NCBI GenBank assembly: GCA_032622095.1
Contig: CP136061.1
Location: forward strand, 232,064,944-232,128,943
DNA length: 64,000 nucleotides
Reading direction: 5' to 3'
Source of the DNA: Siphonodentalium dalli
Taxonomy: Eukaryota; Mollusca; Scaphopoda; Gadilida; Siphonodentaliidae
Program-made: the position numbers and the translations under genes
In this document: piece after piece, positions 1 to 764 of the stretch
Numbering within the stretch: the first letter of the stretch is position 1
How the letters are laid out: each line of letters opens with the position of its first letter
The notes under the pieces: model-generated
What the model was told of the DNA's origin: nothing
Seen by the model: the letters and a program-made list of their open reading frames with translations, nothing else
Database searches by the model: none

Positions 1-636
1 CTTACCCGTTAGTTGCATGTTCGAGACTTACCCGTTAGTTGTATGTTCGAGACTTACCCGTTAGTTGCATATTCGAGACTTACCCGTTAGTTGCATGTTC
101 GAGACTTACCCGTTAGTAGCATGTTCGAGACTTACCCGTTAGTAGCATGTTCGAGACTTACCCGTTAGTTGCATGTTCGAGACTTACCCGTTAGTTGCAT
201 GTTCGAGACTTACCCGTTAGTTGCATGTTCGAGACTTACCCGTTAGTTGTATGTTCGAGACTTACCCGTTAGTTGCATGTTCGAGACTTACCCGTTGGTT
301 GTATGTACGAGACTTACCCGTTAGTTGTATGTACGAGACTTACCCGTTAGTTGTATGTATACGAGACTTACCCGTTAGTCGTATGTTCGAGACTTACCCG
401 TTAGTTGTATGCACGAGACTTACCCGTTAGTTGCATGTTCGAGACTTACCCGTTAGTTGTATGTATACGAGACTTACCTGTTAGTCGTATGTTCGAGACT
501 TACCCGTTAGTTGTATGCACGAGACTTACCCGTTGGTTGTATGTTCGAGACTTACCCATTAGTTGCATGTTCGAGACTTACCCGTAAGTTGTATGTTCGA
601 GACTTACCCGTTAGTTGTATGTTGTTCGAGACTTAC
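1..636. repeat. 26-bp minisatellite carrying a splice-donor motif
   Basis: About 25 head-to-tail copies of a 26-bp unit, with a few 24- and 28-bp variants, run off the left edge of the window. Read on the minus strand, each unit holds AACTAACGGGTAAGTCTCG. GGGTAAGT is a near-consensus 5' splice site, and the first unit is also the end of the exon at 637-764. The protein-like translations of the array (repeated RDLPVS, FETYPLV) are a by-product of the repetition and not evidence of a gene. Confidence 0.95.
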
Positions 637-764
637 CCGTTAGTTGTATGTACAAGTATCGAAGATTCCTCAGAGACATATTGTACCATATCCTTGATCA
701 TGTCGACTGTTGCCTCTGGATAGTTACGTTCCAATTTGTTGGTACTCAGTTTATGTCGGTATTG
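637..764 (-). CDS. Exon 9: PTP-like domain, signature-loop region
   Basis: The 128-nt exon starts after GTGCAG and ends at ACGG|gtaagt. Only phase 0 is open across it, which is the phase the previous exon requires. It encodes an amphipathic stretch ([16 protein letters not shown]) followed by [10 protein letters not shown]. This matches the PTP helix before the catalytic loop and the loop itself, normally [IV]VHCSAGxGRTG. The catalytic Cys is Thr here and no WPD motif is visible upstream, so the domain should be inactive. The acceptor has a weak polypyrimidine tract. The last 14 exonic bases and the donor are the first unit of the adjoining minisatellite. Confidence 0.62.

Follow-up and report, generated by a model that had tools for sequence, protein, structure and literature searches.

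A very long 26-bp minisatellite, apparently confined to one locus of Siphonodentalium dalli, carries a 5' splice-site motif that looks incidental

The window, a stretch of 64,000 nucleotides (C1:232064944-232128943), comes from a genome of 2.23 Gb in 9 contigs. A 26-bp tandem array occupies its left edge (positions 1-653), and for the analysis of this array we joined to the window the 135 kb lying to its left. Several gene-like frames follow the array, all on the minus strand. The longest, at 24336-26030, is an open frame of 564 amino acids that was labeled cysteine-rich and EGF-like by inspection; it had no match in Pfam. It belongs to a large family, with at least 223 matches genome-wide, the best of which (other than itself) has 40% identity over residues 5-541. 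Members of the family are single-exon blocks clustered on contigs C5 and C3, and tyrosine-phosphatase exons lie near some of the relatives on both contigs. These are probably EGF-phosphatase receptors that expanded in clusters. Nearer the array we identified an open frame with a transmembrane-like stretch of 30 aa (15704-15874; also labeled by inspection), for which no database match exceeded the cut-off, and two candidate exons, A (2385-2504; 40 aa, phase 0 to 0) and B (637-788), both unproven. The coding score of exon A was above those of all 383 unselected open reading frames, although exon A was trimmed for scoring and the reading frames were not, and no Pfam match exceeded the cut-off. 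A gene on the right side of the array is plausible, and the array may belong to a receptor-like gene, either within it or at its end.

We searched both sides of the array for a tyrosine-phosphatase gene end, using a motif scan and the exons of one relative, and found nothing convincing. The best phosphatase-exon match in the window (E 0.001; 28960-29085, plus strand) includes an internal stop and is on the wrong strand. Among the matches listed, which are part of 152 found with 150 of 344 candidates scored, none falls on C1 between 223.5 and 245.6 Mb. Exons A and B were not found beside two EGF-like relatives, and the strong matches that do occur beside those relatives look like dispersed repeats. 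Positions 861-1084 and 2093-2311 are about 66% alike but lie on opposite sides of the candidate exons, and therefore provide no evidence of duplicated exons.

Other repeats were also identified in the window. A 23-bp minisatellite occurs at 41444-41919 (plus), 43595-43858 (minus) and 43945-44242 (plus). Unlike the 26-bp array it is scattered genome-wide, with 198 forward and 237 reverse exact matches to 22-mers, and among the matches listed a plus-strand array is often followed by a minus-strand array about 0.5-6.5 kb away. This arrangement resembles a mobile element of the foldback type, with tandem arrays as its inverted ends. At 10964-11378, 36562-37138 and 57747-58158 there are other tandem duplications, whose units measure 122-209 bp, and retrotransposon-like reverse transcriptase frames were recognized by inspection at 18290-22630 and 31903-34645 (both plus). 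A search of window positions 1-3000 against Rfam returned 0 matches.

The 26-bp array extends over C1:231958631-232065596 (106,966 bp), continuing leftward without a break for 106 kb beyond the window. An earlier note on this DNA, covering positions 1-764, had described a 26-bp minisatellite of about 25 units. The period holds, as does the copy number for the part in the window, where TRF places the array at 1-651 with 24.8 copies. The complete array, however, has 4,107 units recognized by anchor parsing, and at the gene side the repeat stops at 653, an edge set from the unit register (the TRF edge being 651) within an array end delimited by TRF, unit parsing, the joined flank and whole-genome counts. 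Positions 654-764 are non-repeat and are part of candidate exon B. The first gene-side unit (628-653, minus strand) reads GTACATACAACTAACGGGTAAGTCTC, the minus-strand consensus of the unit. Anchors are spaced exactly 26 bp apart in 4,086 of 4,106 cases. Six spacings exceed 40 bp (51-54), and presumably each of these spans two units, one of whose anchors is too diverged to be detected. Unit matches with at most five mismatches form a single cluster on one strand (plus) of the joined stretch, in which no gap reaches 60 bp, and none were found on the other strand. The joined stretch contains no N, and no inserted element or foreign junction interrupts the array.

Most variation among units falls at seven positions (2, 7, 16, 18, 20, 22 and 24). 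Five of these (16, 18, 20, 22 and 24) are alternate bases, and positions 17, 19, 21 and 23 are nearly invariant among the 4,086 units compared. Twenty-five common variants account for 3,813 of these units, and 142 distinct types occur among the 4,106 parsed. The most variable and least conserved base is position 18, the +1 G of the putative splice donor, where G is found in 2,156 of 4,086 units (52.8%), T in 1,070, A in 859 and C in 1. GTAAGT is kept in 1,800 of 4,106 parsed units (1,772 as GGTAAGT and 28 with another base at -1) and GTGAGT in 231; the other classes are GTTAAGT (1,068), GATAAGT (842), GTAATT (140) and a mixed remainder of 25. The full consensus CAGGTAAGT (CAG/GTAAGT) is present in 457 of 4,086 units. 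A direct count over window positions 1-653 found GTAAGT 24 times on the minus strand, 16 of them preceded by CAACTAACGG, and all 23 parsed units beginning in the window have the motif intact. The plus strand has GTAAGT once in this part of the window and 33 times in the array. Among random 26-mers of the same composition, 535 of 40,000 (about 1.3%) contain GTAAGT on one strand or the other.

The earlier note had also placed a donor in almost every unit. This is so near both ends, where GTAAGT or GTGAGT occurs in 99% of the units of the first 5-kb bin and of the last bin (74 units, about 2 kb), but not across the interior: the bins next to the ends have 92% and 81%, and the remaining 18 have 5-74%. 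Rare variants one step from a common type were used to ask how the donor 9-mer fares, and 34 of 87 lie inside it (30.1 expected, p = 0.43); the test covers types one base from a common type and excludes 12 further rare types that differ more. Across the array, rare variants are thus neither depleted nor enriched at the donor. Given that no base varies more than the +1 G and that rare variants are at expectation, we see no sign of selection on splicing, and GTAAGT looks like a bystander of the unit, drifting freely and lost in about half of the copies. The 99% of intact donors in the outermost bins would also fit local constraint; no exon was identified at the left end.

How the array grew can be read from the distribution of its variants. 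At unit position 2, the fraction of A is 0.36 in the first block and 0.39 in the last; in 16 of the 18 blocks between them it is 0.00-0.04, and in the other two 0.20-0.24. Likewise, position 7 is G in 0.55 and 0.53 of units at the ends and in no more than 0.29 between. By net block distance (corrected for diversity), the mirrored pair 2/65 ranks first among 1,326 distant pairs, with 1/66 ranking 22nd, 0/67 54th and 0/66 258th; pairs from mid-array can be as close (21/62 is 2nd, 23/55 5th), and the net distance was computed after the raw result was known and is suggestive only. Raw block distance does not single out the two ends (0/67 ranks 602 of 1,326). Runs as long as 105 and 96 units are repeated exactly at other places in the array, and 1,082 of 4,106 units lie in some run of 16 that occurs again. 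The array seems to have expanded in its interior by duplication of blocks, leaving older variants at its two ends. We propose that it would have started as a short array, whose variants are still present at both ends. Blocks ranging from tens of units to about a hundred could then have been duplicated in the interior, through unequal exchange or during replication, so that a few variant units reached high copy number. The choice of mechanism, unequal exchange or replication errors acting on blocks, is our inference.

The length of the array rests on one assembly. If the assembler had duplicated blocks, the true array could be much shorter, and mis-joined reads would also give exact repeated runs such as those of 105, 96 and 52 units. 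However, unit variants shift along the array and the ends differ from the middle, gradients whose coherence we judge hard for mis-assembly to produce, and neither N nor foreign junctions mark a faulty join. We consider an artefact of this kind highly improbable.

Word counts address how widely the repeat is distributed. A degenerate 19-mer that fits most variants has 3,980 forward and 0 reverse matches in the 2.23-Gb genome, and its reversed-pattern control has 0. The joined stretch alone contains 3,980, and because this local count equals the genome-wide count the array seems confined to a single locus, with no copy of the 19-mer left for contigs C2-C9. All 73 exact genome-wide matches to a fully specified 27-mer are also inside the array. 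No further copies of the array were found elsewhere in the genome by these exact and degenerate counts, which strongly diverged copies would escape. In occurring at a single genomic place the array resembles single-locus VNTRs and macrosatellites, which occupy one or two; the strict definition of a macrosatellite asks for a unit of 2 to >12 kb, and with its 26-bp unit the array is therefore not filed as one.

Confinement also bears on whether the array is the centromere of C1, or part of its centromeric satellite. The block is homogeneous, without interruptions or inserts, its ends resemble each other with older layers at the edges, all counted copies are on one contig, and a layered expansion model exists for centromeric arrays (in the account of PMC10910784). 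Yet centromeric satellites are usually, if not universally, shared across chromosomes, and the other 8 contigs have no copy of the 19-mer. We also judge the block small for a 277-Mb chromosome, and the EGF-like open frame is 24 kb away. A centromeric role is accordingly very doubtful.

At the gene side, candidate exon B would encode 50 aa and end in phase 2 at donor 1 (the first GTAAGT; 631-636, minus strand, with its G at 636). The underlying open frame (788-633) has 51 residues and closes at the TAA of the first GGGTAAGT, an in-frame stop at 635-633 that lies within the donor itself. The final 17 nt of the exon (653-637) belong to the repeat. Upstream is an AG with a weak pyrimidine tract (8/15). 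Thus one part of the earlier note is upheld: an open frame with an AG before it does end in tandem potential donors, and it shares its strand with the nearby EGF-like segment. Its proposal that an exon-intron boundary seeded the array is not sustained, since the boundary lies inside the first unit and the array may equally have supplied the donor; the genome search with exon B, which matched only itself, gave no view of the exon end before the repeat.

The coding score of exon B is reached by only 0.5% of 383 unselected reading frames of at least 45 codons, using a codon score that separates poorly (known pieces average -0.061 versus -0.168 for unselected frames) and on which exon B exceeds both means. 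A segment scan of the minus strand from 0.6 to 24 kb found 17 segments scoring at least 7, among which exon B, at 7.9, is not outstanding. An initial scan for splice sites and codon use had been trained on the cysteine-rich frame and was uninformative for other exons. Searched against its own genome, in a first look at one candidate, exon B matched only itself, and comparison of exons A and B with Pfam and solved structures gave chance-level matches only. As a chance control, we examined the 17 GTAAGT sites outside the array, and 6 of them followed an exon-like arrangement, at an acceptor cut-off (9 pyrimidines of 15) that exon B, with 8, would fail. From its sequence features, exon B is a possible real exon that ends in the array.

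If exon B is used, its last 17 nt and its donor would belong to the array, and donor 1 would be the only donor that lets the frame continue. The earlier note had envisaged a ladder of donors, each 26 bp further on, whose use would change the frame. Most steps are indeed 26 bp, but the step from donor 1 to donor 2 is 29 and two more are 28. The frame-changing series is contradicted by the reading frame. Because the TAA of donor 1 stays in frame within the exon, donors 2-24 would all yield one truncated protein, with the same end (VHTTNG and a stop) for 23 of the 24 donors in the window. A real exon B would give one continuing and one truncated form, whatever the length of the array, which in that case would serve chiefly as an inert 107-kb intron or gene end.

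These results bear directly on the notion of a minisatellite at an exon end that tunes or disrupts splicing through its tandem donors. In its favor, the part in the window has 24 minus-strand copies of GTAAGT, a strong donor ends an open frame with some coding signal, the array abuts this frame on the same strand as a real gene-family member, and human IFI6, as cited below, provides a precedent for downstream repeat units that serve as donors. But the shared TAA removes the frame-shift series, the donor decays inside the array where its rare variants are unconstrained, and exon B is only a candidate, with a self-only genome match, a modest scan score and chance-level Pfam matches. The low conservation of the +1 G (52.8%) and the rare-variant counts (34 of 87 against 30.1 expected) argue against the role in splicing that the earlier note had suggested, and we regard it as unlikely.

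Beyond the array, no continuation of the gene was recognized in the 28.6 kb to the left. A motif scan there returned three WPD tripeptides only, and exons of the phosphatase relative gave no match better than E 0.1. Eight candidate acceptors occur in 1.5 kb, with 8-11 pyrimidines of 15 and frames of 2-49 codons, and offer no basis for choosing one. Further out, C1:231932829-231937381 (plus strand) contains a run of open frames with coding-like scores, possibly a mobile or virus-like element. A giant intron has exons on both sides; here we see gene-like frames on the right and none recognized in the 28.6 kb on the left.

Sponging of U1 and protection of long introns from premature polyadenylation are possible roles of U1 sites. 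A giant transcribed intron at this locus would produce a pre-mRNA with about 1,800-2,000 U1-type 5' splice sites, which could serve as a U1 sponge or as a guard against premature polyadenylation. The counts on one strand (GTAAGT in 1,800 units, GTGAGT in 231, and the full CAGGTAAGT in 457 of 4,086) would suit such a role, as would the absence of AATAAA, ATTAAA, AGTAAA and TATAAA from both strands of the array. No downstream exon was recognized in the 28.6 kb on the left, however, nothing indicates that donors are kept, and the absence of polyadenylation signals follows trivially from the unit. Satellite-filled giant introns of Drosophila are transcribed (as described in PMC6508621), and even with that precedent we rate a giant transcribed intron as very unlikely. 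We also rate as very unlikely the fuller version, in which the last intron or gene end of the receptor-like gene is a 107-kb array with about 2,000 consensus 5' splice sites (457 of them full CAG/GTAAGT) that, if transcribed, would titrate U1 snRNP at its own locus or keep RNA polymerase from stopping early on its way across 107 kb, and in which the TAA of the donor makes every mis-chosen donor end in the same truncated protein.

Overall, we think it likely that the array is a very long, single-locus minisatellite (a "megasatellite") mostly explained by ordinary repeat growth, with a splice motif that looks incidental. If it is as long and as pure as assembled, it offers a clean record of minisatellite growth, with some 4,100 units in near-strict register, no inserted element, and ends that seem to remember the founder. 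If transcripts cross it, the locus would be a natural test of how the spliceosome chooses one donor among thousands, and of what dense U1 sites do to polymerase and to U1. If it is not transcribed across, it carries a caution against assuming that a splice-site motif in a tandem repeat works as one: about 1 in 75 random 26-bp units has GTAAGT by chance.

Several known systems share features with this locus. In human IFI6 (6-16/G1P3), two downstream minisatellite units are used as splice donors, according to the account in PMC4526556, which cites Turri et al. 1995 (the IFI6 minisatellite study of Turri, Cuin and Porter, cited also in PMC2915984 and PMC2572611). As described there, minisatellite units carry the splice donor and offer several donors to one transcript, and here too units carry the 5' splice-site consensus, albeit in just 1,800 of 4,106 across the array. 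The two differ in that donor use is reported for IFI6, whereas here there are thousands of units, the potential donors are known from sequence alone, distal donors all keep the same stop, and about half of the units lack a donor. Macrosatellites and midisatellites of the DXZ4 type are, in the description of PMC3218863, uninterrupted arrays at a single place with macrosatellite units of 2 to >12 kb; the uninterrupted tandem array at one genomic place is shared, and the 26-bp unit in thousands of copies is not. The Drosophila genes kl-3 and kl-5 have giant introns filled with satellite and transcribed (in the account of PMC6508621), and resemble this locus in that a simple tandem array of great length lies within a gene or next to one. 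Here, in contrast to what that account describes, the array is 107 kb rather than megabases, no exon is recognized beyond it and its status as an intron is putative. As in the layered centromeric satellites treated in PMC10910784, the two ends of this array have variants in common that are seldom found in its middle, which would fit internal growth; the difference is that this array is on one contig only. Among the open-licence papers listed on donor-bearing minisatellites and 26-bp satellites, we found no array of this kind and size. Repeat-unit donors, single-locus arrays, satellite-filled introns and layered arrays are, by these accounts, all known kinds; still unusual are the size of this array, its purity and its confinement to a single locus beside a gene.
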